A model generated the notes under the pieces. The model was not told the origin of the DNA. It saw only the letters and a program-made list of their open reading frames with translations, and did not search any database. From Candidatus Omnitrophota bacterium (lineage in GTDB: Bacteria > Omnitrophota > Gorgyraeia > Tantalellales > Tantalellaceae), in NCBI GenBank assembly GCA_024277375.1, contig JAJRVD010000074.1:1-40895 (forward strand): a stretch of DNA of 40,895 bases. Reading direction: 5' to 3'. Shown one piece after another: positions 974 through 32,197 of the stretch. Numbering within the stretch: the first letter of the stretch is position 1; every line of letters begins with the position of its first letter. The translations under genes were made by a program, and so were the position numbers.

Positions 974-2019
974 TAGCCGGCAATCAGGTGTTCCGCTATC
1001 TGTACAGCGTTAAGAGCGGCGCCCTTTCTAAGATTATCCGCGACAACCCACATATTCATTCCATTATCGATAGATTCATCTTCTCTTATACGGCCCACAA
1101 AAACGTCGTCCTTACCTTCTACCTCTATTGGCATGGGATAATCAGATGTTTCGGGATCGTCAAGAAGAGTGATACCGGGGAACTCTCCACAAAGTTTTTT
1201 TGCCTCACTTACATTGACCTTCCCTTCGGTCTGAATATTTATACTTTCAGAGTGCGCGTAATACACGGGGACCCGCACACACGTTGCCGTGATGGCTATT
1301 TCCTGATCTTCCATTATCTTTTTGGTTTCCAGCACCATCTTCATTTCTTCTTTCGTATAAAGATTGTCACAAAAAACGTCTATCTGCGGGATAAGGTTAT
1401 AGGCGATCTGGTGCGAGAATTTATTTATCATACCGTCTGATACCGTATGCTCGCCAATACCGTGATGTGAGTCTTTTTTACTTAAATACATGGTTTGACT
1501 TTCCATCTCAAGTATGTTTCCCTGACCGGCGCCGGATACAGACTGAAACGTACTGACAACAACCCTTCTTATTCGACTTTTGTTGTTTATGGCGCATAAT
1601 GGCAATACCATCTGTATCGTGGAACAGTTTGGGTTCGCGATAATGCCTTTGTGCCTCAGTATAGCCTGCGGATTAACTTCAGGGACTACAAGCGGCACTT
1701 CGTCTACCATTCGGAACGCACTTGAATTATCGACACAAACCGCTCCGGCCTCTACCGCGGATGGCAGAAATTCCTTGCTTCTTGACGCCCCGGCCGAAGC
1801 TAAAACAATATCGATCCCGCCAAAAGAATCTTTTGTAAGAACCTCGACCGCGATCTCTTTGCCCCGGAATACCAGCTTTTTATCTCTAGATCTTTCCGAC
1901 GCCAAAAGATGAAGTTCATCTATAGGGAAATTTCTTTCCTCGAGCAATAATAAGAATTGAGCACCAACAGCCCCAGTCGCTCCCATAACCGCTACATTGT
2001 ATTTTTCTTTTCTCTTCAT
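973..2019 (-). CDS. asd: Aspartate-semialdehyde dehydrogenase
   Basis: Catalyses NADPH-dependent reduction of aspartyl phosphate to aspartate semialdehyde, the branch point to Lys, Thr, Met and diaminopimelate. The 348-residue protein has the nucleotide loop GATGAVG (13-19), NSSAFR (98-103) and the active-site motif PNCSTIQ with Cys132. The SVSGAG loop follows, and the substrate-binding/dimer domain fills the C-terminal half. Length is normal. The ATG at 2019 follows an AGGA-type ribosome site. It lies between leuB and truA in the leu operon and overlaps truA by one base. A repeat-filled gap of about 190 nt separates it from leuB, so an internal promoter or processing site is possible but not visible. 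Confidence 0.96.
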   Translation of the reverse strand: MKRKEKYNVAVMGATGAVGAQFLLLLEERNFPIDELHLLASERSRDKKLVFRGKEIAVEVLTKDSFGGIDIVLASAGASRSKEFLPSAVEAGAVCVDNSSAFRMVDEVPLVVPEVNPQAILRHKGIIANPNCSTIQMVLPLCAINNKSRIRRVVVSTFQSVSGAGQGNILEMESQTMYLSKKDSHHGIGEHTVSDGMINKFSHQIAYNLIPQIDVFCDNLYTKEEMKMVLETKKIMEDQEIAITATCVRVPVYYAHSESINIQTEGKVNVSEAKKLCGEFPGITLLDDPETSDYPMPIEVEGKDDVFVGRIREDESIDNGMNMWVVADNLRKGAALNAVQIAEHLIAG

Positions 2020-2080
2020 TGCAATTCCTATCTACTTTTTGTGAGCCCCCCGGACATACCCGGGGAGCTCTGGTAATCGT

Positions 2081-2153
2081 GTAGGGGTTCGATTTATCGA
2101 ACCCGATATAACGGGCTTGATAAATCAAGCCCCTACATTATGACACGGTCTGA
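2081..2153. repeat. Family C double-hairpin element, copy 1 (left-truncated)
   Basis: Starts gtaggggttcgatttatcga and ends cccctac followed by attatgacacggtctga. Two 9-bp hairpins (gggttcgat type and gggcttgat type) are joined by gatataac and closed by gtag/ctac ends. The right outer arm attatgacacgg is present, but the left partner ctgtgtcgtaat is missing. Confidence 0.85.
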
Positions 2154-2181
2154 TTTAAAAAACAGCGTTTTGCATGAGTCA

Positions 2182-2209
2182 ACTTATAGCCTACAGCTTA
2201 TAACTATCG
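2182..2209. repeat. Degenerate 7-bp-period tract at the leuB 3' end
   Basis: Four heptads in register, acttata, gcctaca, gcttata and actatcg, end one base before the leuB stop codon on the minus strand. It belongs to the set of heptad tracts listed for other gene ends in this window. Confidence 0.5.
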
Positions 2210-2210
2210 A

Positions 2211-3263
2211 CTATTTAAGCGCCTTTACGACCAAGTCACCTACTTCAGTCGTAGAGTATCCCATCTTCCCCGCAGAGAGACTCTTCAGTTTATTAGCAGT
2301 AACATCCATGACTGCTTTTTCTATCATATTAGCGGCTTCTGTTTCTCCCAGAGTATCCAACATCATACCACCCGCGCATATTGCGGCAAGCGGATTAATG
2401 ACATTCTGATTTGTGTATTTTGGAGCGGATCCTCCGATCGGCTCAAACATTGAAACCCCTTCCGGATTAATATTCCCACCGGCGGCAATTCCCATCCCGC
2501 CCTGTATCATGGCGGCAAGATCAGTAATAATGTCACCAAACATGTTATCCGTCACAAGAACATCGAACCATTCCGGGTTCTTTATCATCCACATACACGT
2601 AGCATCAACATGCGCGTAATCCCTCTTAACGTCGGGATAATCTTTGCCCATTTCATGGAAAGCTCTTTCCCATAGGTCAAAAGCATACGTTAATACGTTC
2701 GTTTTGCCGACTAAAGTCAATGTTTTGTCTCTATTACGTCTTTGGGTGTACTCAAACGCATACTTAAGACACCTGTCCACCCCCGCACGGCTATTACGTG
2801 ATACCTGGATCGCAACTTCATTAGGCGTATCCTTGTCTATAAATTCACCTTCCCCGACGTAAAGACCTTCGTTATTCTCACGAATAACAACAAAATCAAT
2901 GTCCTCCGGCTTCTTGTCCTTTATGGGAGTCCATACCCCCGGATACAATTTAACCGGACGCAAGTTTATGTATTGTTCCAGAGAAAACCTCAGTTTCAGA
3001 AGAAGTCCTTTCTCGAGAATACCGGGCTTCACATCAGGATGCCCTATTGCTCCAAGAAAAATAGAATCAACTGTTCTAAGCTCATCAAGCACGCTCTGGG
3101 GAAGTATCTCTTTTGTCTTTTTATAGCGCTCACCGCCAAGGTCGTAATCGACCTTTTCATATTTAATACCTTGCTTCTCACAAACCGCGTCTAAAACCTT
3201 CAAACCCTCGCGCACAACTTCCGGGCCTGTTCCATCTCCCGGTAAAACAGCTATTTTGTACAT
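2211..3263 (-). CDS. leuB: 3-isopropylmalate dehydrogenase family protein (LeuB-like)
   Basis: Predicted to oxidise and decarboxylate 3-isopropylmalate in leucine biosynthesis. Family motifs include the N-terminal [11 protein letters not shown], substrate-loop [28 protein letters not shown] with the catalytic Lys, and the metal-binding region [13 protein letters not shown] place the start at the ATG at 3263 (350 residues), because it begins the conserved strand and follows GGAGAGGAAAA. An upstream ATG at 3305 would add 14 unlikely residues lying in repeat DNA. The nucleotide-binding loop reads [14 protein letters not shown]. LeuB usually has Asp-Ile after GSAP; Lys-Tyr is what NADP-dependent isocitrate dehydrogenase has. 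Homoisocitrate, threo-isocitrate or tartrate dehydrogenase are alternatives, but leuC and leuD next door favour LeuB. No leuA is in the window. Confidence 0.88.
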
Positions 3264-3281
3264 TTTTCCTCTCCTTTTGTC

Positions 3282-3309
3282 AGCACAAAGCATGGCGCAT
3301 GGCACATGG
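3282..3309. repeat. Degenerate 7-bp-period tract (catgg type)
   Basis: Units agcacaa, agcatgg, cgcatgg and cacatgg in register between leuD and leuB. It would encode the doubtful N-terminal extension of LeuB, supporting the downstream start at 3263. Confidence 0.5.
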
Positions 3310-3330
3310 GAGTAAAAGTTGTATTCTAAA

Positions 3331-3358
3331 ACTCTCCATTCTCCCTGCTCTATTCTCC
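3331..3358. repeat. Degenerate 7-bp-period tract (ctcc type)
   Basis: Units actctcc, attctcc, ctgctct and attctcc in register, just downstream of the leuD stop. It is a second heptad tract in the leuD-leuB gap with a different unit from its neighbour at 3282-3309. Confidence 0.5.
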
Positions 3359-3373
3359 ATGCAAACGTTTAGT

Positions 3374-3862
3374 TTATTTCTGCTTCTCAGCGTAAGCCAT
3401 AAGACCGCCGCTTCGTATTATTTCTTTGATAAATTTCGGAAATGTTTCCGCTCTATATGTCTTTTCTCTTTTCGCTTTCTTAATCTCTCCACGGGTAGCA
3501 TCAACCTCAGCAATATCTCCCGCTTCCAAATTGTCAGCCGCTTCAGGGCTTGTGAATATAGGAAGTCCTATGTTGATGGCATTTCTGAAGAATATACGCG
3601 CAAAACTCTTTGCGATAACACAGGAAATCCCTGCCGCTTTTATGGATATCGGAGCATGTTCCCGACTGGAACCGCAGCCAAAATTCTCCCCACCGACTAT
3701 AATGTCGCCCAATTTGATCTTCTCCACAAACTCAGGATCGGCATCTTCCATGCAATACTTAGCCAATTCTTTCGGATCCGACGTGTTTAGATAACGGGCC
3801 GGAATGATCTCATCAGTATTTACATCATCTCCGAATTTATATACTGTACCTTTGAACTTCAT
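3374..3862 (-). CDS. leuD: 3-isopropylmalate dehydratase small subunit
   Basis: Small (swivel) subunit of isopropylmalate isomerase, which pairs with LeuC to convert 2- to 3-isopropylmalate. The 162-residue protein shows the archaeal/type-2 LeuD layout: [19 protein letters not shown] near residues 12-30, the conserved [15 protein letters not shown] loop, then [17 protein letters not shown]. Length fits the short LeuD2 class rather than the roughly 200-residue enterobacterial form, matching the type of LeuC beside it. The ATG at 3862 follows AAGAGGAAT and lies 10 nt after the leuC stop, so the two subunits are probably made from one message. A homoaconitase small subunit cannot be excluded by sequence alone. 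Confidence 0.94.
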
Positions 3863-3872
3863 ATTCCTCCTC

Positions 3873-5153
3873 TTATAGGTCCGCCGGATGCGCGATCATA
3901 CCTTTGATCGCGCTTGCTGCCGCTATAGCCGGATTGGACAAATACACAGAACTTTGGGGATGACCCATACGACCTACAAAATTCCTATTGGTAGTCGCGA
4001 CGGCAACTTCACCTTTAGCCAGGATCCCCATATGCCCTCCCAGGCAGGGACCACAACTCGGTGTGCAGAAAACACCACCGGCACGAACAAATGTCTCCGC
4101 ATACCCTTCTTTAATCGCCTCAAGATAGATCGCCTGTGTAGCCGGTATCACAACAAGACGCGTCCTGGAATGTACTTTCTTATTCTTTATAACTGCCGCG
4201 GCCTGCTTAAGATCGGATATTCTTCCATTTGTGCACGAGCCTATGACAACCTGATCTACCTCTATATCTTTCAGCTGGCTTACAGATTTTCCGTTAGACG
4301 GTAAGTGCGGCGCGGCAACAACGGGTTCAAGTTTTGAAACATTATATTCCCGCACATCGGAATATACCGCGTCTTCGTCACTGGAGATCACTTTATACGC
4401 TTTACGCGCTGGTTTGTATTTCCTGACAGCGGCCTTGACATATTTTTCAGTTTCTTTATCAGGCGCTATTATGCCGTTCTTTGCTCCGGCTTCAACAGCC
4501 ATATTGCACATAGAAAATCTGTCGTCCATCGAAAGCATCTCAATGGTATTTCCGGTGAATTCCAGAGTCTTGTACAATGCCCCCGCGACCCCGATATCGG
4601 CTATAACATGAAGGATCAGATCCTTTCCTCCTACCCATTTCCTGGGTTTCCCGGTAAATCGGATCTGGATGGTCTCCGGAACTTTCAGCCAGCATTCACC
4701 AAAAGCCATAGCATATGCCAGATCGGTACTGCCCACTCCTGTAGCGAACGCGCCTAACGCGCCATGCGTACAAGTATGAGAATCAGCCCCTATCATGAGG
4801 TCTCCCGGCAGAACCAAACCCCTTTCAGGAAGAAGTGCGTGTTCCACCCCCATCTGACCCAACTCAAAATAATTTGTTATGCCGAATTCCGCGGCAAACT
4901 CTTTAAGGAGCTTAGCCTGGTTAGCGCTTTGTATATCTTTCGCCGGAAGGAAGTAATCCGGGACCAAACAAACTCTTTTTTGGTTAAAGACCTTTTTCTT
5001 GCCAAGCTGACGAAATTCCCTTATGGCAATAGGACTTGTGATGTCATTACCAAGACATATGTCAACATTAGCCCTGATAAAATCACCCGGAGCTATCTCT
5101 GAGATGCCCTTTGCGTGCGAAAGCAATATTTTTTCCGTTATTGTATATCCCAT
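3873..5153 (-). CDS. leuC: 3-isopropylmalate dehydratase large subunit
   Basis: Aconitase-family large subunit carrying the 4Fe-4S cluster. In the 426-residue protein the three cluster ligands are visible as GSCTNGR (Cys307) and PSCGPCLGG (Cys367 and Cys370). [20 protein letters not shown] is the conserved active-site segment and [12 protein letters not shown] lies near the end. The length is that of the LeuC2/HacA type. The ATG at 5153 follows AAGGAGTACT, an excellent ribosome site. It is the first gene of the leuC-leuD-leuB-asd-truA series, behind a promoter at 5222-5250. The family includes homoaconitase; leucine synthesis is favoured by context, but leuA is not in view. Confidence 0.95.
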
Positions 5154-5173
5154 AGTACTCCTTGTAAGGTTTG

Positions 5174-5200
5174 CAGGGGCACGACGCGCCGTTCCCCTAC
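5174..5200. repeat. Family D GC-rich hairpin (degenerate) in the leuC leader
   Basis: caggggcacgacgcgccgtt followed by cccctac is a worn copy of the perfect palindrome at 10588-10615. It lies between the predicted transcription start and the leuC ribosome site, so it would be in the 5' leader RNA. Confidence 0.5.
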
Positions 5201-5221
5201 CTCATGTGCATACGAACATGC

Positions 5222-5250
5222 AGTTTACCAAATTTTGAGATTTAAATCAA
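5222..5250 (-). promoter_or_regulatory. Predicted sigma70-type promoter for leuC operon
   Basis: On the minus strand -35 TTGATT (5245-5250) and -10 TAAACT (5222-5227) are separated by exactly 17 nt. Transcription would start near 5215, about 60 nt before the leuC ATG. Found by eye; no experimental support. Confidence 0.6.
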
Positions 5251-5271
5251 TAGGGCATTTTATTGCTGATC

Positions 5272-5299
5272 GGTGAATAGTGAATGGTGAACGGTTACA
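5272..5299. repeat. Degenerate 7-bp-period tract over the end of the oppF-like gene
   Basis: Units ggtgaat, agtgaat, ggtgaac and ggttaca in register. It overlaps the stop codon (5295-5297) of the ABC ATPase gene, so the last codon is part of the tract. Confidence 0.5.
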
Positions 5300-6023
5300 A
5301 TTTTGGGATAGAATCCAGAAGTTGACGGGTATATCCATCTTTTGGTGATGAATATATCTCTCTCGGAGAGGCAACCTCTACCAAGGTGCCCTCTTTCATC
5401 ACACCCATAGCATCAGACATGAACTCCGCTACTCTAAGATCATGTGTTATGAAAACATACGTAAGATACATCTCTTCCTGAATATCTTTCAACAAATTCA
5501 GGATACCAGCCTGAATAGAAACATCCAAACTGGATACGGGTTCATCTAAAACCAGTATATGCGGTTTTCTTACTAAAGATCGAGCGATCGCTATCCTCTG
5601 GCGTTCCCCTCCTGAAAACTGATGCGGATATTTATCGATACATTCGGCACTCCTGAGTTTAACCACCGAAAGCATTCTCTTTACTCCAGCTTTTATCTCA
5701 TTTCTCTTTTGCCCGGAAATAAACAACGGTTCGCCTACTATGTCTCCTATGGTCATTCGGGGGTTTAATGAGCTGAATGGATCCTGAAACACAATATCCG
5801 TATTACCCTGGCATTTTATCTCACCGGAGTCCGGCTCAAGTATACCAACAATAAGTTTCGCGATAGTCGACTTGCCGCACCCGGACTCTCCCACAAGACC
5901 AAAAGTCTTCCCCCTGGGGACGGTAAAGCTCACCCCGTCTACAGCTTTAACCGAGTCTCCATCCGAGGAGAAAATCCCACGACGCGGATGAAAATATTTT
6001 TTTACATTTTTTAATTCGATCAT
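5295..6023 (-). CDS. Oligopeptide/dipeptide ABC transporter ATPase, OppF/DppF-like
   Basis: Second ATPase of the peptide importer. Walker A GESGCGKST lies near residues 44-52, the Q-loop is in VFQDPFSSLNPRMTIG, the signature is FSGGERQRIAIARSL, Walker B is ILVLDEPVSSLD and the switch His is in FITHDLRV. The DPFSSLNP and SSLDVSIQ variants are typical of the Opp/Dpp ATPases. At 242 residues it lacks most of the roughly 70-residue C-terminal extension usual in OppF, ending soon after DGYTRQLLDSIP. It begins 65 nt after the OppD-like gene, with a perfect palindrome (6046-6078) in the gap. The substrate (peptide, nickel or other) cannot be told from sequence. Confidence 0.92.
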   Translation of the reverse strand: MIELKNVKKYFHPRRGIFSSDGDSVKAVDGVSFTVPRGKTFGLVGESGCGKSTIAKLIVGILEPDSGEIKCQGNTDIVFQDPFSSLNPRMTIGDIVGEPLFISGQKRNEIKAGVKRMLSVVKLRSAECIDKYPHQFSGGERQRIAIARSLVRKPHILVLDEPVSSLDVSIQAGILNLLKDIQEEMYLTYVFITHDLRVAEFMSDAMGVMKEGTLVEVASPREIYSSPKDGYTRQLLDSIPKL

Positions 6024-6045
6024 TGTGTTTTTCTACCCTGTACAG

Positions 6046-6078
6046 AACCGTTACATGACCCCGGGTCATGTAACGGTT
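6046..6078. repeat. Perfect 33-bp palindrome, family G copy 1
   Basis: Two 16-bp perfectly complementary arms around one central C. The core acatgacccc/gggtcatgt is shared with 20898-20932, but the outer arm (aaccgtt/aacggtt) is not. It lies between the two importer ATPase genes and could pair in the mRNA. There is no U-run, so it is a weak terminator candidate. Confidence 0.85.
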
Positions 6079-6088
6079 CCCCTCCACG

Positions 6089-6883
6089 CTATCCCGGAAG
6101 CCTCCCGCGTTTATCTCCAAGCCGTGGTATACAGCTTATAAGATGTTTTGTATATTGTACTTTTGGGGTTTTTAAGACCTCATCCTTTGGGCCTTTTTCA
6201 ACAACAAAACCTTCTTTCATCACACACACGTCATCCGCTATCATGTTTACAACTGAAAAATCGTGTGTAATAAATAACATCGCGAACTGTTCAGTTTCTT
6301 GTATTTGTTTGATAAGATCGAGTACATGCTTTTGTATTGAGACATCAAGAGCCGTTGTCGGCTCATCCAGTATTAAAATATCAGGCGAGCAAGAAAGCGC
6401 CATGGCCAACATAATACGTTGGCGCATTCCGCCTGACAATTCATGTGGATAGCTCATAGCGATCGCCCGGGGAAGCTTCACCCTCTCCATCAGTTCATTC
6501 AATCGCCCCTCTTTCTCATCGTGGGAGCGTCTCTGGTGCGCGTCTATAGCTTCCGTTATCTGTTTGCCTACACGCATAACCGGATTTAAAGCCGTAAAAG
6601 GCTCCTGAAACATCATCGCTATTTTGTTTCCTCTTATTTTTCTCATACATTCCGGATCCAAATCAAAAATATTCTGTTCATTAAACCATATTTCACCTTT
6701 TTTATGATCAGCACTTCGAGGAAGAAGATCAAGCATCGCCAAAGCGGTCATAGTCTTTCCGCTTCCCGACTCACCCACAAGAGCTAAAACCTTTCCAGGC
6801 TCCAGATCAAAACTTACGTTATCTACAACATAAGTCTCCCCGAACATAACCGTAAGATTTTTAACCTCCAGAATTTTGTTCAT
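6089..6883 (-). CDS. Oligopeptide/dipeptide ABC transporter ATPase, OppD/DppD-like
   Basis: First ATPase of the importer. The 264-residue protein shows Walker A GESGSGKTMTALA near residue 36, the Q-loop MMFQEPFTALNPVMRVG, signature LSGGMRQRIMLAMAL, Walker B LILDEPTTALD and the His switch FITHDFSVV. The TTALDVSIQ motif places it in the Opp/Dpp group. Like its partner it is shorter than typical OppD (about 330 residues) and lacks the C-terminal region containing conserved cysteines seen in some members. Its ATG shares one base with the permease stop (TAATG), so translation is coupled with the upstream permease. Confidence 0.93.
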   Translation of the reverse strand: MNKILEVKNLTVMFGETYVVDNVSFDLEPGKVLALVGESGSGKTMTALAMLDLLPRSADHKKGEIWFNEQNIFDLDPECMRKIRGNKIAMMFQEPFTALNPVMRVGKQITEAIDAHQRRSHDEKEGRLNELMERVKLPRAIAMSYPHELSGGMRQRIMLAMALSCSPDILILDEPTTALDVSIQKHVLDLIKQIQETEQFAMLFITHDFSVVNMIADDVCVMKEGFVVEKGPKDEVLKTPKVQYTKHLISCIPRLGDKRGRLPG

Positions 6884-12972: not shown

Positions 12973-14031
<1,059 letters not shown>

Positions 14032-14496: not shown

Positions 14497-14602
14497 AGTT
14501 TTGAAATGGTGGGTATGTCCCGGCGCGAGTTCGGAAAAACCGGAAAATGTTTCGGTTTTTACGCATGTTTAAGCACCGGGACATACCCACCATTTCAAAA
14601 CT
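14497..14602. repeat. Family A palindrome with 27-bp perfect arms
   Basis: Arms at 14497-14523 and 14576-14602 are exact reverse complements. Inside are gcgagttcgg and cgcatgtttaagc, also found in the element at 22016-22139, and an inner stem gaaaaaccg/cggtttttac. It begins 13 nt after the stop at 14615 and could end transcription of the giant frame, though no U-run is evident. Confidence 0.9.
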
Positions 14603-14614
14603 GCACAAAAGGCA

Positions 14615-15817
14615 TTATAACGAGAATGCCAGATCGAGCTTGCGGTAGTATTTTTCCTTGAGCAACTGATACTCCATCGGATCCATCTTAGGCAGAAACT
14701 TCACTATCCTCTTGACCGCGTCATAATACGTGACCATAGAAGGCAAGCTTTCAAATGGAATACCTTTACCCACCGCCAACTCAAGAGATATAGACAACAT
14801 CTCGAGTATCGGGATAAAACACTCTTCATCGCTTTTTAGCTTTTCGGCCTTGTTAAGCTCACTCATATCCATGGAACCGAAAAACGCTCCCTTGTTCTTC
14901 TTTGTGCTCCTCAGAGCCTCGAACTTTTCATTGCCGAGTATCGCGTCTATGGCGGCTTCCGAGTCCAAAATAATGATATTGGAATAATCGGTATCGCTCT
15001 CATCTGCCATCTTCATAAGTTTCTGCGCTAAGATATTACTATCTTCAAATACAAAGTCGACATTATCCAGGCCCAGATCTTTGATCTCTTTCTCGAAAAA
15101 GTCTTTTATCCTTTTCATCCGCGGATTCAAAATGCTATGCTGGTCTTCTCCTCTCTTATATCTGGGAAGACCACTTTTCCCGAGACCTATTATGATCCTC
15201 TGCCCCTTTTCACTTCGGCTCTTATCTCTCTTGGCGCGCCGGGCAAGCGTAACACTGGCTGAACACAGACCATCTATTTCAAGGTCATTTATCCCTTTAT
15301 CTTTTATACCCTCTATTCCACCCTCTCTTATTGTTCTAACGTCATCAGCAATCTCGCGAGGCACAACCCCTATGTTATCAACTTCTCTCAATAACATCTC
15401 AAGACGCTTCTTGATCTCAAACGCCGTACTGTCCCTGTTTATGCGCCATTTACTAAGACTATTAAAAATTATCTTTTCGCTGCCAAGGTATTTGACTATA
15501 TTATTGCTCGCTGCTACCACCACACTCATTCTATTGTTTATTTTTTCAACCGATTTATATGCTTTTGCTACCTCTTCAGCTTCCGCGTCTAATTGTTCCT
15601 TATCCTTAACGGTTTTTCCCACCGCACCCTGCAACCCATCATTTCCTGAGTCTTCGGTGACATCTTCCTTCGATTTACTCCTGAAACCTTCGTGGCTCTC
15701 CTTATAGCTCTCCTTATAGCTCGCCTCGTATGCATCAATAACCTCGTCATCTTCCCCATTATTAACTTTCTTCACCGTTGCGAAAATCGCGAAACCCATA
15801 ATAAATGTTATGAACAT
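14615..15817 (-). CDS. C-terminal segment of the giant protein (400 residues), or a separate membrane-anchored protein
   Basis: I recognise no named domain. It begins with a hydrophobic segment (MFITFIMGFAIFATVKKV), followed by an acidic and Lys-rich linker (about residues 20-90). A globular alpha/beta-looking region follows, with FVFEDSN, YSNIIILDSEAAIDAILG and GAFFGSMDMSELNKAEKL. Its end, KSDEECFIPILEMLSISLEL and DAVKRIVKFLPKMDP, is helical. It is in frame with the segment before it, separated by TAA and three codons. A TAAGG sequence seven bases before its ATG means independent initiation is possible. Function unknown. Confidence 0.75.
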   Translation of the reverse strand: MFITFIMGFAIFATVKKVNNGEDDEVIDAYEASYKESYKESHEGFRSKSKEDVTEDSGNDGLQGAVGKTVKDKEQLDAEAEEVAKAYKSVEKINNRMSVVVAASNNIVKYLGSEKIIFNSLSKWRINRDSTAFEIKKRLEMLLREVDNIGVVPREIADDVRTIREGGIEGIKDKGINDLEIDGLCSASVTLARRAKRDKSRSEKGQRIIIGLGKSGLPRYKRGEDQHSILNPRMKRIKDFFEKEIKDLGLDNVDFVFEDSNILAQKLMKMADESDTDYSNIIILDSEAAIDAILGNEKFEALRSTKKNKGAFFGSMDMSELNKAEKLKSDEECFIPILEMLSISLELAVGKGIPFESLPSMVTYYDAVKRIVKFLPKMDPMEYQLLKEKYYRKLDLAFSL

Positions 15818-15826
15818 TTTCAGACC

Positions 15827-16090
15827 TTACGCTGCAACTATTCCTTTTTTTGCACCCACCAATACCGGGCCAGCCGCGAATGCCGACGTAGCTGATAGCG
15901 GGATCCCAGGCAATGCAGACAGAAGCAATCCTGTGCCCACCAAAGCGAATAACATCAGAATAACCTTACCCGCGGACGTAACGCTCTTCTTCTTATCATC
16001 CTCAAGACCGGCTAGATACTCTCTCTCTTTATGAAACTCTTCTTCAGTATCTGGTTTTGTCAGATCAATTATCTTTCTCTGAATTTGCAT
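15827..16090 (-). CDS. Short segment of the giant frame (87 residues from first ATG)
   Basis: From the ATG at 16090 this reads an amphipathic start (QIQRKIIDLTKPDTEEEFHK), then KSVTSAGKVILMLFALVGTG, a likely transmembrane segment, and an Ala/Gly-rich end. The same frame is open upstream to the TAA at 16244 and encodes 51 more plausible residues, including KLRGYYVRGIVKYRDTEG. The ATG is therefore probably internal and not a start. No ribosome site precedes it. Best regarded as part of the giant protein linking the repeat region to the last segment. Confidence 0.55.
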   Translation of the reverse strand: MQIQRKIIDLTKPDTEEEFHKEREYLAGLEDDKKKSVTSAGKVILMLFALVGTGLLLSALPGIPLSATSAFAAGPVLVGAKKGIVAA

Positions 16091-16243
16091 CGCTGCCTGA
16101 TAAGCTTTTTCACCTTCCGCGCCTTCTGTATCCCTATACTTGACAATTCCGCGAACATAATATCCTCGTAGTTTTTTGTTCGCTTCTTCAGCTTCTTTAG
16201 CCGTTCCACCATCTTTGCCTCTATTAATCTTTTTCTCTTCATC

Positions 16244-19200
16244 TTAAGTTAGACTGTCTTTTCTGAATTTCTCAACAACATCAGGGTAGTTATATATATC
16301 CGGATGCATCGCCATACTCATCCTGACTTCTTCTTTGGAGTCGTCCGCCAGCTTAATAATACTGGATATTGGGATCTCATGATTCCAGGCTACGGCTTCA
16401 CGCACCAGCTCATCGCTGTCTTGCATCGCTTTTTTTATCAGCGCTGGTTTCTTTATGATGTCCGGACGCATTGCTATAGTCACCCTGACCGGCACCCTGG
16501 TCTTTGGGTCGTCAAGCAATTCGCCTAGGGATTCTATCGATATTTTTAAGTTCCCGACTATCGGCACCTGTACTTCCGGATGAGGATCATGCGTTAATTT
16601 ATTAACCGCTTTGTCATATTCAGAAATATCCGGACGAGCCGCCATTAACTTTCTGACATCCTTTTCCGGGTAATCAACAAACTCTATAATATGTTCTGTC
16701 GGAATTTTCAAGTTTCCCGCTATAGCCATTTTTACCGATATATCCACCTCATCCTTTAGCTCTCCAAGCGTTAAAAGATAATCATCAGACTCGGGATTTA
16801 ATTCTTTGGCATCATTTACCTTTGTCGCGATATCTCCCGATTCGTCAAACCCATCACCGAAAAGATCCGATAATTCCGGGTCCAAGCCCAGATCTATTGT
16901 CGTATATTCTTCTTGTTTTTCCGGCTGCTCCTCTTGCTGCGGTTCCTCATTTATGACCTGCGCTTCTTCATTTCCCTGTACTTCCTTTTCCTCTGGGAGT
17001 TTCGCTTGAGCTGGCAGCCCATCCTCTTCCTTGTCTAGAGAACCGGATTCAACCAGATTAATATATAGATTGGTGAAATAGTTCATTATAGGAATACCTA
17101 GAGAGAAGATACTCGGCCCTTTCATGTCTCTTATTGCCAATACAACCTTCACAAAATACGATCTCGTCATTAGATCTCCGATAGCCCTGGCAGACTCCCT
17201 TAAGTGCCCTAATACCGCGCCTGCTTTCTTTCCGGACTTCTTAACGACTAAGATCAGTAATCTCGGATTAAGGAATAAAGGGCTGCTATTCCCCTCCAGT
17301 AAATCGTATGCAAGCATCGACAATTCATAATACGCGTCACCTTTTTTGCCTCCCGAATTAACGCGTATAGCTTTGAATAGATCCGCTATGTACCAGATAT
17401 CGTCTTCACGCGCCACTCCGGCATCAAAAAGAAATTTAAGCGCTTCTCGACTTCGCCTCATAGAACCCTCAACGTTAAGTGTACGAAAAAGACTTGCTAT
17501 GTAATTTTTGTTCTTCTCATTTTTCATGCGAAGAAGCTTAATAGTTATCTCCAGCGCGATCATCACATCGTCATCCGCGCCTAAAGATTCAACATGCCGA
17601 AGCTCTCTCTCATATACCTCCTCCAACATATATATGTTGTGCAATCCAAGATCTTTGAATATGACCGGTACCATACATGTCTCGTCCGAGAAAGCTATTA
17701 TACTTTTTATTATGTCCCTGCGCTTAGCTCCTCTGTCTATTACCGTATCTTTTCTTCCTGTCTGTGCCGCTTTAAACCTATACTCTTCCAGGTATCCTTT
17801 AAATCTCTCCCGGACAATTTGTTTGGCCTGCAATCCGGCTCTTTTCGTCATATGCAGTTCACTCTCAACTTTAGACAGATCAATATCATAGAATATCAAA
17901 GACCTTTCTTTAAGGTCGCTAAACTTATGTCTCTTGATAACTCTTAAGAGAAGAAAAATCCCCGCAAGGACGGCAACCATCGATAACGCGATCGTCACAG
18001 GCAGCGAATACTTCCCTAATTCAACAACTTGCGGTAATATTTTGTCTTCTATCCCGCTTTGCGCCAAAGCCGGAATCGTTTTTGTCGCGAGAGCACCCAA
18101 AAACACCATGCTCACCAACATCTCAAGAAATGAAAAACCTCCTTGGTTTCTCTTTTTTCTTTTCCTATTACCCTCGCGGTAACCCTTTTTATATCCCTTC
18201 GAATAGTCCCTCTTATTGGACACAATATCTGGATTATATCCGGAAAGATATTTTTTGAGATTGGACCCCTCTCCATCTAACGCGTCTTCTTCACCATCAG
18301 CATACCCCACATAATAAGAGGTCGATTTTTCTTTACCCCCATTATTCCCGGAAGAGTATATATACAGCGCGGCAATTATCGCGGCTACAATGGTAACTCC
18401 ATCGTCAAAACCTAAAGATGCCGCGGATATCGGTTGTTCGGAATATATTGAAGAGGCGACTGCCTCAACAGAAGCGCGCACTACGCTCGCAAAGAAAACT
18501 ATCGCGCTGACAACAAAAGCACCTATGAGCGTTATTATAAAGATTCCCGGCCAATCCCATTTCAGGTTTTCTGAATATGGCTTCGCGTCAGGGAAAAAGG
18601 CCTTCAAAGCTTTCGACGCGATCTTGAAATCTCCGGGTACAACACTTTTCTTAAGGCTCAAAAGCGATGACATAACATATTCATCATGTTTTTCATCGAA
18701 TATTCTTAGTTGCTCACGATATACTCTGTTAAATTTTAGATCCTGTGCCTTTTTGCGTATAATTTTGAAATTTTCGCGAGCAGGTGATTTTATGTATCCG
18801 GAAACGCTTTTAAGGCTGCTTTCGAATATTTTTTTATCTTTTTCATAGGCCCACTCATATTCTTCAAGTGCGTCGAATATTTTATCTTTATCTCTTTTGA
18901 ATTTGATCTCACTCTCAACAAATTTATCTATGAAAGTTCTCACACTCTCGCGGGTTATTTCATTTTCGCCACTATCCTTGATCATATTTTCCGCTACACT
19001 ATACATTTGTTCAGGAATGGCTTCCCTGCTCTCAGGACCAGCAAGCATTTCATGAGATAGCCTCTCAAATAGCTCAAGTTCTGTATCTGATAAATTGTCG
19101 AGATAAGCGGATAAATCCCCCGAATTTAGCCTTTGAAAGAATTCGGCAAATTCCAGACGTCTCTTTGCTTTTGTTCTTTTATCCTTTAGCGCGCTAAATC

Positions 19201-19798
19201 CCTTTATACGTTTGATGACATCGGCATAGCCCTCAAGCTTCTCGCCTTTTAATCCTACCGACGAGACCGCCACCAGGATCTTTTGTTCCAATAGATCCCC
19301 CAGCTTCTCAATTTCCTTATCTGTGATGTTTTTGGCAGTTAAAACTGAGAGATGTGACATCATAGCGGTATCTAATATATCCAAAACCGTTAGGATTAAA
19401 AATTGCGGCTTCAAGGGTATCGCGTTATCGTGGAGTAACTTTGCCTTGTACAATAATTCGCTTTGCTTCATCTTGAACAAAGTGGTTGAAAAAAGATTTT
19501 CATTCTTAAAAGATTTCAACAATTCGCCCGGGACTCCGATCTGGTAAAGAAGTAATACCCTATTCAAAATGCTGTTATATTTTACATAAGGCTCCTCATC
19601 TCGACTAGCAACGTATATCAATTCATCCAACCACTCATCATCCAGCCACTCCTCCCGTATCTCCCGTTTCAATACTTCTCTTAGAAATCTTACCTTGCTT
19701 ATAGCTATACGCTCTTTTACTCGATCCCCGACCCACCCCAGATAATCAAAATGCATTATCTCTGACAAACTTGGCCAGGGCGGCAAAAAACGTAACAT
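16244..19798 (-). CDS. Central segment of the giant protein: membrane region plus LRV/HEAT-like repeats (1,184 residues)
   Basis: The first 400 residues are charged and helical. Hydrophobic segments lie near 412-440 (GIFIITLIGAFVVSAIVFFA), 466-482, 553-575 and 597-620. A Tyr/Gly-rich stretch (YYVGYADGEEDALDG, KGYKKGYREG) precedes KKRNQGGFSFLEMLVSMVFL, which resembles a type IV pilin cleavage site with Glu at +5. Residues about 920-985 are acidic. The last 165 residues hold 30-40-residue units resembling leucine-rich-variant or HEAT repeats (KMAIAGNLKIP, RVTIAMRPDI, REAVAWNHEIP, RMSMAMHPDI). The ATG at 19798 has no ribosome site and the same frame continues upstream. No enzyme motif was found; a structural or envelope role is a guess. 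Confidence 0.8.
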   Translation of the reverse strand: MLRFLPPWPSLSEIMHFDYLGWVGDRVKERIAISKVRFLREVLKREIREEWLDDEWLDELIYVASRDEEPYVKYNSILNRVLLLYQIGVPGELLKSFKNENLFSTTLFKMKQSELLYKAKLLHDNAIPLKPQFLILTVLDILDTAMMSHLSVLTAKNITDKEIEKLGDLLEQKILVAVSSVGLKGEKLEGYADVIKRIKGFSALKDKRTKAKRRLEFAEFFQRLNSGDLSAYLDNLSDTELELFERLSHEMLAGPESREAIPEQMYSVAENMIKDSGENEITRESVRTFIDKFVESEIKFKRDKDKIFDALEEYEWAYEKDKKIFESSLKSVSGYIKSPARENFKIIRKKAQDLKFNRVYREQLRIFDEKHDEYVMSSLLSLKKSVVPGDFKIASKALKAFFPDAKPYSENLKWDWPGIFIITLIGAFVVSAIVFFASVVRASVEAVASSIYSEQPISAASLGFDDGVTIVAAIIAALYIYSSGNNGGKEKSTSYYVGYADGEEDALDGEGSNLKKYLSGYNPDIVSNKRDYSKGYKKGYREGNRKRKKRNQGGFSFLEMLVSMVFLGALATKTIPALAQSGIEDKILPQVVELGKYSLPVTIALSMVAVLAGIFLLLRVIKRHKFSDLKERSLIFYDIDLSKVESELHMTKRAGLQAKQIVRERFKGYLEEYRFKAAQTGRKDTVIDRGAKRRDIIKSIIAFSDETCMVPVIFKDLGLHNIYMLEEVYERELRHVESLGADDDVMIALEITIKLLRMKNEKNKNYIASLFRTLNVEGSMRRSREALKFLFDAGVAREDDIWYIADLFKAIRVNSGGKKGDAYYELSMLAYDLLEGNSSPLFLNPRLLILVVKKSGKKAGAVLGHLRESARAIGDLMTRSYFVKVVLAIRDMKGPSIFSLGIPIMNYFTNLYINLVESGSLDKEEDGLPAQAKLPEEKEVQGNEEAQVINEEPQQEEQPEKQEEYTTIDLGLDPELSDLFGDGFDESGDIATKVNDAKELNPESDDYLLTLGELKDEVDISVKMAIAGNLKIPTEHIIEFVDYPEKDVRKLMAARPDISEYDKAVNKLTHDPHPEVQVPIVGNLKISIESLGELLDDPKTRVPVRVTIAMRPDIIKKPALIKKAMQDSDELVREAVAWNHEIPISSIIKLADDSKEEVRMSMAMHPDIYNYPDVVEKFRKDSLT

Positions 19799-19840
19799 CC
19801 AATCAGGAACATCATCGATAAAAACTACCGTCCCTCTCGG

Positions 19841-20794
19841 TTATTGAGGCACTTCATAAAGCGCTTCATACAAACGCGATGAGGCCTTTCTATCTTTTCT
19901 CGATCTATACCACTTCCGCCCTCTTACGATCAGAACCCAGATCACAACTACCGGGAAGATCAACAATAATGGAAATATTGTTTTAAGACTATTCGGATCC
20001 GTTACCTGCGACAATATTCCGGAACTCTTCTTCTTTCTTTTCTTCTTTTTCCTATCCCTCTCTACCGGGACCTTTATATCCTCTTCTCCGTAGCCTTTAT
20101 CGACTTTTAATGCGTCTTCTGTCTTAAGATCCCTTTCTCCTAACTCACCCGGCAATATCCTGACTACATATCCCTCCACATTAAACTCTTCCCATTGGTC
20201 ACAAAACTCAATAAGTTTTATCCCCCGCGCCGCGGAAGAACCTTCAGGAGGAACATAAGCAAAATACCTCTTCCCGTCTTTCGCGAAAGGAATAACTAAC
20301 ACACCTTTTCGGATTATATGAGGATTGATCCTTCCCAAACAGATACCGTTATCGGGGCCTTCATAGGCTCCATCAGCTTCAGTTTCCCATTCTTCGACAT
20401 TAATAACAACATCGTCTCCATAGTTTTCATGAAAATCTGCACGCATCCAGATGATATTGAACCTAATACTGGACTCCATGCCTTCGCTACGTCGGCTGAA
20501 TTTATTCAGATCCTTAACGACATCCGCGAATACAAAACTCGCGATATCACTAAAAACAACCGACCATATCCAGTTGGTGTCAAAAGTCTTTTTCTGTTCA
20601 AACGAGACCCCCAAAGAAACAATATCGTGATCGCTATTTATTGGAGTAGCGGCCTTATTTATGATTTGAAGGTTGTGCACTGGCTTGGGCGCGGACCCCG
20701 GTGGATACGCCCATGAGATATCGAGCGCTACAAAAGCCATAATTAATGTAATGCTTACAGCCTTAAAAAGAAAGTGTCTTTTTATCTTATTCAT
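19841..20794 (-). CDS. N-terminal secreted segment of the giant protein (317 residues)
   Basis: A clear Sec signal (KAVSITLIMAFVALDISWA, cleavage likely after residue 29 or 30) starts the protein. A region of mixed strands follows, with PVHNLQIINKAATPINSDHD and DDVVINVEEWETEADGAYEG. After a basic run (DRKKKKRKKKS, near 250-260) comes a transmembrane segment (about 268-290, IFPLLLIFPVVVIWVLIV) and a short basic tail. The ATG at 20794 has a fine ribosome site (GAGGAGAATATA) and a strong promoter. The segment ends at TAA 19841-19843, beyond which the frame stays open into the 1,184-residue segment. No family recognised. Confidence 0.85.
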   Translation of the reverse strand: MNKIKRHFLFKAVSITLIMAFVALDISWAYPPGSAPKPVHNLQIINKAATPINSDHDIVSLGVSFEQKKTFDTNWIWSVVFSDIASFVFADVVKDLNKFSRRSEGMESSIRFNIIWMRADFHENYGDDVVINVEEWETEADGAYEGPDNGICLGRINPHIIRKGVLVIPFAKDGKRYFAYVPPEGSSAARGIKLIEFCDQWEEFNVEGYVVRILPGELGERDLKTEDALKVDKGYGEEDIKVPVERDRKKKKRKKKSSGILSQVTDPNSLKTIFPLLLIFPVVVIWVLIVRGRKWYRSRKDRKASSRLYEALYEVPQ

Positions 20795-20853: not shown

Positions 20854-20882
20854 ATTTTAACATATGCAATTAAGTAAGTCAA
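20854..20882 (-). promoter_or_regulatory. Predicted strong promoter for the giant frame
   Basis: Minus strand -35 TTGACT (20877-20882), 17-nt spacer, -10 TAAAAT (20854-20859). The start would be near 20847, about 50 nt before the ATG at 20794. It is followed by an AT-rich leader. Confidence 0.7.
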
Positions 20883-20935: not shown

Positions 20936-21861
20936 TTATCCTAGGATTGTGTCTGGTTTTATGGAATAACCGCGGAGAAATTCCGCGGGAAGCATGGATT
21001 TTTTGCCTTCAAGCTGAAGCCTATCTATGCGAAGGCTTGCGTCAGAAGCGCTTACAGTAAGCGTTTTGTCGTCGAATGTTATGATGCCCGGTTTAGAAAC
21101 ACCGGTTGTTTTTGTAGCTTTAAGAATTTTAAATACTTTGCCGTCAAGATACGTATAGGTCCCGGGCCAGGGCTGAAAAGCTCTGATTTGCCTCAAAATA
21201 TCATCGGCTGGGGAATTCCAGTCTATCCTGCCCTCTTCTTTTTAAGCTTATCGGCATACGTTGCTTCTTTCTCGTTCTGTTCGGTAAAGTTTTCCTGATT
21301 GTTTTCGATCTCGCTGAGGGTATTTATTATAAGTTCGCCGCCCGTCAGAGAAAGCCTTTCAATTAAATCCAACGCGTCTTCGGCATCACCAATAGACGTT
21401 TTATCCTGCGCGATAATACTTCCGGCATCCATGCGTTCTGACATTTTTATTACGGTGTTCCCTGTTTCAATTTCACCGTTTTGTATTGTTCTGTTAACGG
21501 GAGACGCACCGCGATATTTTGGCAAAAGAGAAGGATGCAGGTTTATGCAATATTTGTCAGGAATGGTCAGAACCTCTTGAGTAAGGATCTGACCATAGTC
21601 GACAACTACGAAAACCTCGGCGTTCTTTTCCTGTAAGGAATTAATAAATCTCTTATCAGAGGCTTTCTCCGGCTGTAATATAGTTATCTCCGGCACCTTT
21701 TCAGTCGCGGCAGTTTTGATGGAAGTGGGCAAAACTTTATGCCCGCGGCCCTTTCCTCTGTCGGGTTGGGTCACAACAGCAAGCACCTGGTGGTCACTCG
21801 CCAACAACTTTTCCAATGTTGGTATGCCAAACTTTCCTGTTCCAAAAAAAATTATTCTCAT
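20936..21861 (-). pseudogene. fmt: Methionyl-tRNA formyltransferase, broken by a one-base deletion
   Basis: Formylates initiator Met-tRNA. The N-terminal part (21223-21861) has IIFFGTGKFGIPTLEKLL and the catalytic Asn/His in INLHPSLLPKYRGASPVN, with the catalytic Asp in SERMDAGSIIAQ. It ends out of frame after YADKLKKKRAG. The C-terminal domain continues in another frame (20936 to about 21235) as IDWNSPADDILRQIRAFQPW. Adding one A to the A5 run at 21239-21243 (T on the plus strand) restores KLKKEEGRIDWNSPADDI, exactly the family pattern. This is therefore a single-base loss in a homopolymer, either a sequencing error or a real frameshift. It lies downstream of priA, a common pairing. Confidence 0.9.
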
Positions 21862-24459: not shown

Positions 24460-24487
24460 ACGCTATACGCTGTACACTCTACGCCCT
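24460..24487. repeat. Degenerate 7-bp-period tract over the udg stop
   Basis: Units acgctat, acgctgt, acactct and acgccct in register, covering the stop codon at 24479-24481. Confidence 0.5.
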
Positions 24488-25188
24488 ACTTCTCCCCTGT
24501 GGAACCTTCAAGCCCAATTCTTTGGCGATAGCCTGCATATCTTCCCATACGTCCTTTTTTCCTATGGAATTCCTCAGCAAATAAGCAGGATGATACGTTG
24601 GCATTAATTTAACGCCATGATAATCATAAAAATTACCGCGCAACTTGCTAATGGGGGTCTCGGTCTCTAAAAGTCTCTGGGCGGCGAATTTACCGAGAGC
24701 GCATATAACTTTAGGCTTGATCAAACTGATCTGTTTTATAAGATACGGCGAACATAACGCGATCTCTTTTGTTTCAGGATTTCTGTTGGCGGGAGGACGG
24801 CATTTTAGGATGTTCGCGATAAAAACATCTTCTCTCTTTAAACCGATAGACTCGATGATCTTTGTTAGGAGCTGTCCGGCTCGGCCGACGAAAGGACGCC
24901 CTTGAGCGTCTTCATCCTTGCCGGGAGCTTCTCCGACAAACATAAGATCCGCGTCCGGATCACCCTCGCCAAAACAATATTGGTTCTGGTCTCCTCCAGT
25001 GAACATTTCCGGCAAACTGCCACTATTTTCTTGAGGTCGTCCAAATTTTGACCCTCATCCTTCGTCCCACGTCCTTCGTCCCTCGTCACTCGTTCAGGTG
25101 TGATGATCACTTCTTCTACTCCAGCCAACATTTCGCACTCGATCCTTTGTTTCAGCTCCTCAATAGCTCGCGCTTTTTTGTTTACCAT
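24479..25188 (-). pseudogene. Family-4 uracil-DNA glycosylase, broken by a one-base deletion
   Basis: Removes uracil from DNA; family 4 carries a 4Fe-4S cluster. The N-terminal part (25188 to about 24975) has KKIVAVCRKCSLEETRTNIV with two cluster Cys. The rest (to 24479) has FGEGDPDADLMFVGEAPGKD and the motif QGRPFVGRAGQLL. It also shows CRPPANRNPETKEIALC with the other two Cys, and TYHPAYLLR. The two parts are in different frames. One extra base in the T4 run (plus-strand A4 at 24971-24974) restores TNIVFGEGDPDADL, as in homologues. A 42-bp heptad tract (25053-25094) codes a charged linker before the domain. Length when repaired is about 236 residues. Confidence 0.9.
25053..25094. repeat. 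Degenerate 7-bp-period tract inside the udg reading frame
   Basis: Six heptads: cctcatc, cttcgtc, ccacgtc, cttcgtc, cctcgtc and actcgtt. Total length of 42 bp is 14 codons, so the frame is kept. It encodes a linker like TRDEGRGTKDEG, not part of the conserved fold. Confidence 0.65.
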
Positions 25189-29439: not shown

Positions 29440-30579
29440 CCTCAGCCACTCAGCAAAAACCCCGGCATCCGCAAGATCAAATACCGCGCCTTTGGACGTA
29501 CTAAGTTGTCCTTTTTCTTTGATCGAGAGTACCTCGGCGGTATGTATCGGTTTTAAAAATCTTAAAACCCGCAAAAGAAAACAATCAGGAAGCATAACGG
29601 CATTAAACCTTTTTTTCTTGGTCAATACCTTCCATAGAATAGCCAAGTCCATAAATTTACCGGAGAAGAACGTTAAATTCACATCGGCATGTTTTACGCT
29701 ATGAATATCCTTCGAGATGTTGCCTCCCGCCGTTCCAAAGCGTCCGGGCCTCACCCACATATCGATTATCGTTCGTTGCCGGGCCATATTCCTCAGTACT
29801 CCGTATCTTTCGGGAACTTTTTCAATGTCGTCATAAGAGTCGTCCATATAAAGCACCCTTAATAAAGGTCCCCACTTTTCCTCAAAGATCTCTTTATTTC
29901 GGCGATAAATTTCTTTTTTACCTTTTAAAGTTCTTCTTGAGGCCTGTTCCAGATGAAATACATATGCCGCTTCCGCCATAACAGAAATAAACCCCGCCTT
30001 CTGTGCCCGTATCGAAAAATCCGTATCCTCATAGCATACACCCTCGTACACTTCATCAAGATACCCTATCTCTTCAATAACCTCTCTTTTGATAAGACAG
30101 GCGAACCCTATCGCGTGCCCAAGCTCCACAAAAGAACCTTTCTTGTCAGCCAAGAGCGCGGCATGCTCATTGACAGAAGCTCCCCCATCGAAACTGGATC
30201 CAAATGTATTACTTTGAGGATTCACCAGACCTATTTCATCGGCACTTTCAGCTACGGCTATCATCTCTTCCAGCCATCCGTCAGCTACAACACAATCGTT
30301 ATTTAGAATACACAAAAACGGCGCGTCCGAAAGCTTCATACCCTTGTTCATTCCGGCGGCAAACCCGGCGTTCTCTTCAGAGAATATTTTTTCAACGGTT
30401 ATAGTGTCATTACCTCGAAGGCCCCCGAGAAAAGCTTTGACCCCGGGGTGACGACTGGCATTATCCACAACAATGAGCCTTGAGGAGATACGCGTATGCT
30501 CCATAACGCTTTTAACACACTTCTCTAAAAGCTCCGGACTCTCATAACTAAGTAATATGATATCACATTTGTATTTCAT
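29431..30579 (-). CDS. GT2 family glycosyltransferase (rhamnosyltransferase-like)
   Basis: GT-A-fold glycosyltransferase, 382 residues from the ATG at 30579. N-terminal CDIILLSYESPELLEKCV is followed by LIVVDNASRHPGV and NAGFAAGMNKGM. The donor/metal site is FLCILNNDCVVADGWLEEM, then DEVYEGVCYEDTDFSIRAQK containing the ED catalytic region. The C-terminal 150 residues are less conserved and may bind the acceptor. A GTG at 30603 would add eight residues lying in a heptad tract, so I prefer the ATG. The start overlaps the end of the tandem GT2 gene. Likely an LPS or O-chain enzyme; the sugar is unknown. Confidence 0.88.
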   Translation of the reverse strand: MKYKCDIILLSYESPELLEKCVKSVMEHTRISSRLIVVDNASRHPGVKAFLGGLRGNDTITVEKIFSEENAGFAAGMNKGMKLSDAPFLCILNNDCVVADGWLEEMIAVAESADEIGLVNPQSNTFGSSFDGGASVNEHAALLADKKGSFVELGHAIGFACLIKREVIEEIGYLDEVYEGVCYEDTDFSIRAQKAGFISVMAEAAYVFHLEQASRRTLKGKKEIYRRNKEIFEEKWGPLLRVLYMDDSYDDIEKVPERYGVLRNMARQRTIIDMWVRPGRFGTAGGNISKDIHSVKHADVNLTFFSGKFMDLAILWKVLTKKKRFNAVMLPDCFLLRVLRFLKPIHTAEVLSIKEKGQLSTSKGAVFDLADAGVFAEWLRSR

Positions 30580-32197
30580 TGTTTCGCATCTCGTGTTTTG
30601 CACCTTGAATCTCTTTCACCTTTTTCTCGTCCTGAAGGATCTCCCAGTATTTCGCCCACTTTAAAAAATGAACCCACGCGAAAAAAGCGGAAAATATAAA
30701 ACCGCGCACTCCCTCTCGAAACCCCATCTTCTTGAAATAGAACTTCCGGAAAAGCTTAAACGGTTTTACTCTTATGTTGTACTCTACTTCCTTGGGATCT
30801 ATTTTCCCGCTCACCTCAACTATCTCTCTCGCCTCAAGCGTTGTGTACCGGTTCTGCCTGTCAACAAGCTGCGTAAAACTCTGAAAAGGAAAGTGTTCAA
30901 CATCCGCCTTCAACATACCTATCTCCCCGTCAACGATAAGCTGATGATGCACCCTGCCATCGTACCTGGCCGACCCTCTTTTGAACAGGTGGTGTGAATA
31001 ATGGTACCATCCTCCACGCCGCATAAAATGGCCGAAGAAATAATTCTTACGCAGGAACTTGTAGGCCGCGAACTCCGTTCCTTCTCTAAGGATCTTTAAC
31101 ATCTTGTCTTTAAACCCCTGTGTCACTACTTCATCAGCGTCAAGCTGCAGGATCCAATCTCCGGATGAATTATCAATGCCGATGTTCCGCTCTTGTCCAA
31201 AATCGCCTTCAAATTTATGAGGTATGACCTTCGCTCCATATTCCTCACATATCTCGACTGTCTTATCTGTCTAGATGCCATCAACGATCACAATTTCATC
31301 CACCCACCTGATGCTTCGGAGACAATTCCTTATCTTATCTTCCTCATTCTTAGCTATCATAACGACCGTAAGCTTTTTACGGCCTTGGGTATCCGGCTTA
31401 TCGGGCGATGCCGGATGACCTGTACTCTTCCGGTATGACGCGTCCAAAGCCCGTTCCCAGTAATGAGCGTAACTCAGGACCTGGTACATCCCCCCCATCA
31501 CCGCCATTATGAACCCGTACATACCGTCTTTTTTACCGTTCTTTTTGTGATAAGCTCTTAAAAAACGGTCTATCGTACGCCTTACCGCCCTGGAAAACGG
31601 CATCCCCTTGGGAGATTCTGCCCATTTTTCAGCTTCACGGCTGGTCTGATTGTTAAGTTTGGCGGTAAAATCAGTTATGTCCCTGTAGCTATAATGCAAT
31701 AATGGATTTTTCAACTCGCCTCTTGGATCTTTCATGAACGCACGCGGGTGTACATCCACTTCCTCATACTTGAATTCGTCTCTTTTAAAAAGCCTTAACT
31801 GCGCGCTGGGATACCATCCTCCATGTTCAAGCCAGAAATCTCCTATAAAATTTTTCCGGGGAATACCAAAACCGTTACAATCCGTACCCTTCGCCAAAGT
31901 CGTTATAATCTCTTCTTTCAACTCAGGAGTAATGCGTTCATCCGCGTCAAGGCTCAGAACCCACTCATTCGAAGCCAACGAATAAGCGTAATTTCTATGT
32001 GCCCCCTCATTGGTCATTTCTTTCTGGTATATTTTGTCTGTAAATTCTTTTACAACCTCACGAGTACGGTCAGAACTATTGTCATCAAGAACAACGATCT
32101 CATCCGCCCATTTAACACTCTCCAGGCATTCTCTAATTCTTCCTTCTTCATTCTTCGTTATCACTACTACCGATACCGGCACTTTATTATCGTTCAT
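30563..32197 (-). pseudogene. Tandem two-domain GT2 glycosyltransferase (WaaE/KdtX-like), interrupted by an in-frame TAG
   Basis: A frame of 545 codons holds two related GT-A domains. The first (about 1-265) has VSVVVITKNEEGRIRECLES, VLDDNSSDRT and WVLSLDADERI. The second starts VVMIAKNEEDKIRNCLRSIR and has its own LQLDADEVVTQGF. Both halves share the unusual HGGWY/GGWYHYSHHLFKRG-type middle motif and HPR/VHH acceptor motif of LPS core glucosyltransferases. TAG at 31271-31273 (codon 309) falls in IVDGI-stop-TDKTVEI, where the family reads Ser or another small polar residue before TD. The translation continues cleanly in the same frame. An amber codon or error has split it; otherwise no decay is visible. 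The end overlaps the next GT2 gene. Confidence 0.85.
30581..30622. repeat. Degenerate 7/14-bp-period tract over overlapping gene ends
   Basis: gtttcgcatctcgt is followed by gttttgcaccttga and atctctttcacctt, a 14-bp (two heptad) period. It codes the last residues of the tandem GT2 protein and the doubtful extension of the next one. Confidence 0.45.

Follow-up and report, generated by a model that had tools for sequence, protein, structure and literature searches.

A 2,060-codon frame with three in-frame TAA codons in a Candidatus Omnitrophota contig: probably one giant envelope protein gene with false stops

When a bacterial reading frame of several kilobases is cut by in-frame stop codons, is it one gene or several, and do the stops belong to the cell or to the assembled sequence? 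This question is raised by a locus of a Candidatus Omnitrophota bacterium lying in the 40,895-nucleotide stretch analysed here (contig JAJRVD010000074.1 of assembly GCA_024277375.1; hereafter the window), which corresponds to contig C62 in a genome of 2.07 Mb and 108 contigs, scored as 95.7% complete and 0.07% contaminated, and the only representative of its genus among the genomes searched. On the minus strand of the window, from 20794 to 14615, 2059 codons and a final TAA form one frame, which amounts to 6.2 kb even if read through, and which contains in-frame TAA codons at residues 318 (19843-19841), 1517 (16246-16244) and 1656 (15829-15827). We argue that this is probably an ordinary gene for a giant envelope protein whose stops are false and come from consensus errors of the contig.

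The interrupted frame and its homologues

The composite gene (14615-20794), delineated from its translation and its homologues, comprises four segments on the minus strand, whose open reading frames (ORFs) measure 317, 1184, 87 and 400 amino acids when counted from ATG. Segment 1 (19841-20794) carries a signal peptide, an N-terminal domain and a transmembrane helix at residues 272-290; segment 2 (16244-19798) is the longest; segment 3 (15827-16090) includes a further transmembrane helix at residues 1611-1629; and segment 4 (14615-15817) has 403 codons when measured from the preceding stop. An earlier note on this DNA had placed the four segments in a single frame, as they indeed are, and had put the probability of such sharing by chance at 1 in 27, a figure that is right and that constitutes weak evidence. 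It had also held that the bridges across the stops read as protein. Bridge 1 (19799-19840, 14 open codons) and bridge 2 (16091-16243, 51 open codons devoid of any start codon) do resemble the genes of the contig, with codon-usage scores in the shared frame of 0.35 and 0.28 bits per codon, respectively, the references being 0.24 (standard deviations 0.17 and 0.09) for in-frame blocks of verified window genes and -0.07 (standard deviations 0.20 and 0.11) for off-frame blocks; bridge 3, of 3 codons, is uninformative. These values support one coding frame and do not prove it, bridge 1 being short and bridge 2 scoring high in two reverse frames as well (0.22 and 0.27).

Start signals are unevenly distributed along the frame. 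The ATG of segment 1 is preceded by an AGGAG ribosome site, while two of the three internal ATGs, those at 19798 and 16090, lack such a site, as had been noticed before, and the third, at 15817, follows a weak TAAGG. Segment 1 was further credited with a promoter and a signal peptide of its own. The good ribosome site and the signal-peptide-like start stand, but the promoter (20854-20882, minus strand; TTGACT, 17, TAAAAT, 10/12) is a consensus match only; it is the sole 10/12 match on the minus strand, in a region with fewer promoter-like matches in total than its shuffles (7 vs 13.7).

The main weight of the one-gene case rests on the homologues. The read-through protein was matched in 16 of the 19 genomes of the family. 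A single 2169-residue frame of G004 (contig C40) combines the signal-peptide start (55% over 42 residues) with the C-terminal domain (38% over 319 residues), and the signal domain and the C-terminal domain likewise share uninterrupted frames in G007 (C66, 1788 amino acids) and G010 (C43, 2768 amino acids). A paralogue of 2030 amino acids in the genome itself (G000:C11) also holds both ends in one frame free of stops; it is the window frame that is cut by three TAAs. Residues 333-813 match the interior of relatives' frames of 2284-10443 amino acids, and the match in G017, which begins exactly at the first ATG of segment 2, nevertheless corresponds to residue 1798 of a 2815-residue frame. A profile of the C-terminal domain retrieved more than 80 copies from 17 of the 19 family genomes; where the contig leaves room, frames of less than 500 amino acids are rare among them and most measure 600-6677, which places the 403-codon frame of the window among the few short ones. 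Homologues consistently separate at these borders were looked for and not found, the ends being fused in single frames instead. On these alignments we regard one protein rather than four as well supported.

Broken genes on the contig and the nature of the stops

The TAAs had been taken as a feature of this gene. However, neighbouring single-copy genes are broken too, which makes the contig sequence the most likely source of the stops. On the same strand, the only copies of GAPDH (12973-13992) and truA (239-973) found in the genome carry an in-frame TGA (13344-13342) and an in-frame TAG (562-560), respectively; a glycosyltransferase gene (30563-32197) has an in-frame TAG at 31273-31271, at an alignment column occupied by Ser in distant homologues; fmt (20936-21861) is frameshifted near 21240 and the uracil-DNA glycosylase gene (24479-25188) near 24970. 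In the relative G012, contig C10 runs colinear with the window over a stretch that starts at truA and extends at least as far as the glycosyltransferase cluster; truA, GAPDH, fmt (310 amino acids) and the uracil-DNA glycosylase gene (226 amino acids) are all intact there; the glycosyltransferase does not belong to this intact set. Four breaks were counted in 23.5 kb of orthologue-covered window sequence versus one candidate in some 83 kb of such sequence in the other sampled parts of the genome (binomial P about 0.01). The first version of this survey flagged tandem paralogues and was replaced by stricter ones, whose sensitivity is imperfect (the glycosylase frameshift was missed and found by inspection). 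In the relatives, the flags that the same survey raised in 266 kb of G012 resemble wrong-strand alignments, and 128 kb of G005 are left with two possible frameshifts. The single candidate elsewhere in the genome is an in-frame TAA in a conserved gene (G000:C35; L057 13229) that aligns well with G012 on both sides. Misbinning of the contig was considered and rejected, its tetranucleotide correlation with the rest of the genome being 0.99.

Because false-looking stops and frameshifts occur in single-copy housekeeping genes of the same contig, the three TAAs are most likely consensus errors; the stops would be false, or else very recent. Such errors would explain all breaks on the contig at once, whereas a recent pseudogene accounts for the giant gene only. 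The TAGs of truA and the glycosyltransferase gene both lie in the context CATCTAG and both where relatives have Ser, a pattern that could be a context-dependent sequencing artefact.

The spacing between fmt and GAPDH is 159 bp in G012 and 6.9 kb in the window, where it holds the giant gene and a perfect 25-bp inverted repeat directly downstream of it (14499-14600; arms 14600-14576 and 14523-14499); the gene has therefore either been gained in the present lineage or been lost from that of G012. Beyond the inverted repeat, near 14460-14415, lies a motif, GGGGACAGTC, of which copies occur in many further contigs of the genome (a REP-like element). A LeuB-like protein of the window has its best named relatives (77-87% identity) in metagenome-assembled genomes of Omnitrophota, including Ca. 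Aadella gelida.

Some observations weigh against an ordinary gene with false stops. No homologue was found that covers all four segments or aligns through any of the TAAs, because the middle of the protein is not conserved; the claim of one giant secreted or membrane protein, made in the earlier note, is thus sustained by the fusion of its N- and C-terminal parts in relatives and paralogue but not by an alignment through a stop. A scan of a named genome collection with peptide patterns returned no close orthologue; the C-terminal alignment was too little conserved for that scan. The closest named relatives, searched whole, gave the same partial matches and no full-length orthologue. A putative internal repeat bridging the third TAA was rejected, since 30 of 500 shuffles scored as high. 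Of the six nonsense codons of the contig, three lie in the giant gene, whose share of the nonsense targets is about 19% (P = 0.08); relaxed constraint could account for this mild excess. The product of the gene has also lost a nearly invariant Trp of the best-conserved motif of the C-terminal domain.

These last two features are what one would expect if the stops were real and recent, one giant gene having lately been inactivated in this lineage so that the full protein is no longer made. This is the alternative that survives best, and we give it a real though minor chance. The absence of the gene from this place in G012, which may make it dispensable, and the presence of a paralogue on C11 speak in the same direction. 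However, no frameshift has accumulated over the 6.2 kb and the codon bias is retained in every segment, so that any decay would be very young, and inactivation of the giant gene gives no account of the stops and frameshifts in the neighbouring single-copy genes GAPDH, truA and fmt.

It is rather improbable that the locus consists of four operon genes which share a frame by chance, with translation of segments 2 to 4 beginning anew past each TAA through reinitiation or coupling. Besides the 1-in-27 figure, the 9 bases between the third TAA and the next ATG, with their weak ribosome site, would suit such coupling, and so would the start of the G017 homology at the first ATG of segment 2. Nonetheless, relatives and the paralogue of the same genome have these parts joined together or embedded in long frames, bridge 2 stays open for 51 codons before any start codon appears, and two of the ATGs lack ribosome sites.

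Readthrough or recoding by nonsense suppression, by which the full giant protein and intact GAPDH and TruA would be made despite the stops, is very improbable: in its favour, in-frame interruptions occur in several genes of the contig and involve TAA, TAG and TGA alike, and the two TAGs share their context and fall at Ser positions of relatives, yet each of the three codons also terminates intact genes of the same contig, the fmt and glycosylase frameshifts would stay unexplained, comparable breaks are concentrated on one contig, and no suppressor was seen among the six tRNA genes read in the sampled contigs (6 of the 37 of the genome). Still harder to credit is the broader proposition that the in-frame stops of the contig are real and suppressed in vivo, with all three stop codons being read through in housekeeping and giant genes alike. 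An alternative genetic code was rejected on the ground that a reassigned codon should not terminate, while each of the three does so in intact window genes.

The clustering of breaks in core genes of one contig also carries a practical meaning, namely that scores of 95.7% completeness and 0.07% contamination give no protection from local base errors that mimic split genes.

Protein plan and the C-terminal domain

With the stops set aside as probable consensus errors, the gene would encode an envelope protein of about 2,060 residues that is exported and spans the membrane several times, made of a signal peptide and a short N-terminal domain, a long and poorly conserved middle, and a conserved C-terminal alpha/beta domain. 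The signal-peptide-like start (residues 1-29, 20708-20794), which ends in DISWA followed by Y, is common to relatives and to the paralogue of the same genome, an alignment of seven N-termini displaying an end of the LDISWAYPP type. Hydropathy revealed seven or eight hydrophobic segments including the signal peptide, those beyond the helix at 272-290 lying near residues 751-812, 885-953 and 1611-1670. Residues 333-760 (18515-19798, minus strand), whose homologues lie inside long frames of relatives, gave a mostly helical fold model of low confidence (pLDDT 62), and HEAT-like repeats ahead of the second TAA are weak (17.6 bits vs a cut-off of 23.5). No family scored above cut-off when each segment was scanned with Pfam and NCBIfam, the Pfam matches being sub-threshold only; the earlier statement that no family is recognised is therefore true of the named libraries, but many unnamed relatives exist.

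The C-terminal domain (residues 1731-2059; 14618-15604, minus strand) belongs to no named family and is conserved in this and related Omnitrophota families. Its profile, in which the window row is included, matches the window at E = 5.9e-94. The domain, which measures about 290 residues, gave a good model in which an alpha-helical stretch comes first and an alpha/beta part second (mean pLDDT 84.5, pTM 0.83). No sequence match was obtained in Pfam or in the PDB, and a comparison of the fold with the PDB and with viral models gave nothing below E = 0.001; TM-scores stayed near 0.2 in spite of weak Rossmann-type E-values, and the domain is therefore left without a name. In a phylum-wide sample the domain was present in 12 of 145 genomes, mostly from this family and one sister family, and it closes proteins with differing middles, such as HEAT repeats, radical SAM or deaminase-like stretches.

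A few neighbourhoods of these proteins deserve mention in their own right. Four copies of the domain occur as a tandem array in neighbouring proteins of 920-1294 amino acids (G005:C24:29203-40464). The 2030-residue radical SAM and C-terminal-domain protein on G000:C11 (L174 4757-19998) adjoins a frame of at least 3011 amino acids in which HD- and PEP-utilising-enzyme-like stretches were recognised by eye, and two tRNA-Ser genes adjoin the pair. A 2276-residue frame of G017 (L047 3-6830) matches part of phosphoglycerate kinase at about 28%, a metabolic-enzyme-like domain in a giant frame.

Place among the giant proteins of Omnitrophota

Giant ORFs that exceed 20 kb and encode several transmembrane helices but few recognised domains have been documented across the phylum, among them one of 39,678 amino acids in Velamenicoccus archaeovorus, and an exported or surface role has been proposed for them (Seymour et al. 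2023, PMC10066038). The window gene resembles those described there in its phylum, its very long frame, its several transmembrane helices and its few recognised domains, and looks like a smaller member of the same kind; it differs in that its 6.2 kb fall short of the 20-kb threshold and in that its frame is interrupted and theirs are not. The C-terminal domain is not mentioned in the parts of that report considered here. Closer at hand, the 2169-residue protein of G004:C40 has the same signal-peptide start, the C-terminal domain and a similar total length, but its middle is built of strong HEAT repeats instead of the helical region of the window protein, and its frame has no internal stops; the C11 paralogue, also similar in length and in both ends, differs by the radical SAM domain of its middle, the lack of stops and a C-terminal identity of only 26%.

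We place the gene in a widespread, unnamed group that codes for giant Omnitrophota proteins. It lies between fmt and GAPDH as an insertion specific to its lineage, and its product may act at the cell surface in adhesion or as a scaffold, as proposed for other giant ORFs of the phylum. Only the C-terminal domain has some novelty, of a mild sort, in what is otherwise an ordinary giant-protein gene. The domain may serve exported proteins in sorting, anchoring or assembly, and its place at the end of giant and mid-sized proteins whose middles differ widely makes it a testable candidate for sorting or anchoring. For the organism, the locus would add one more large surface-type protein to a phylum of giant ORFs, and its interruption should be filed neither as four genes nor as recoding.

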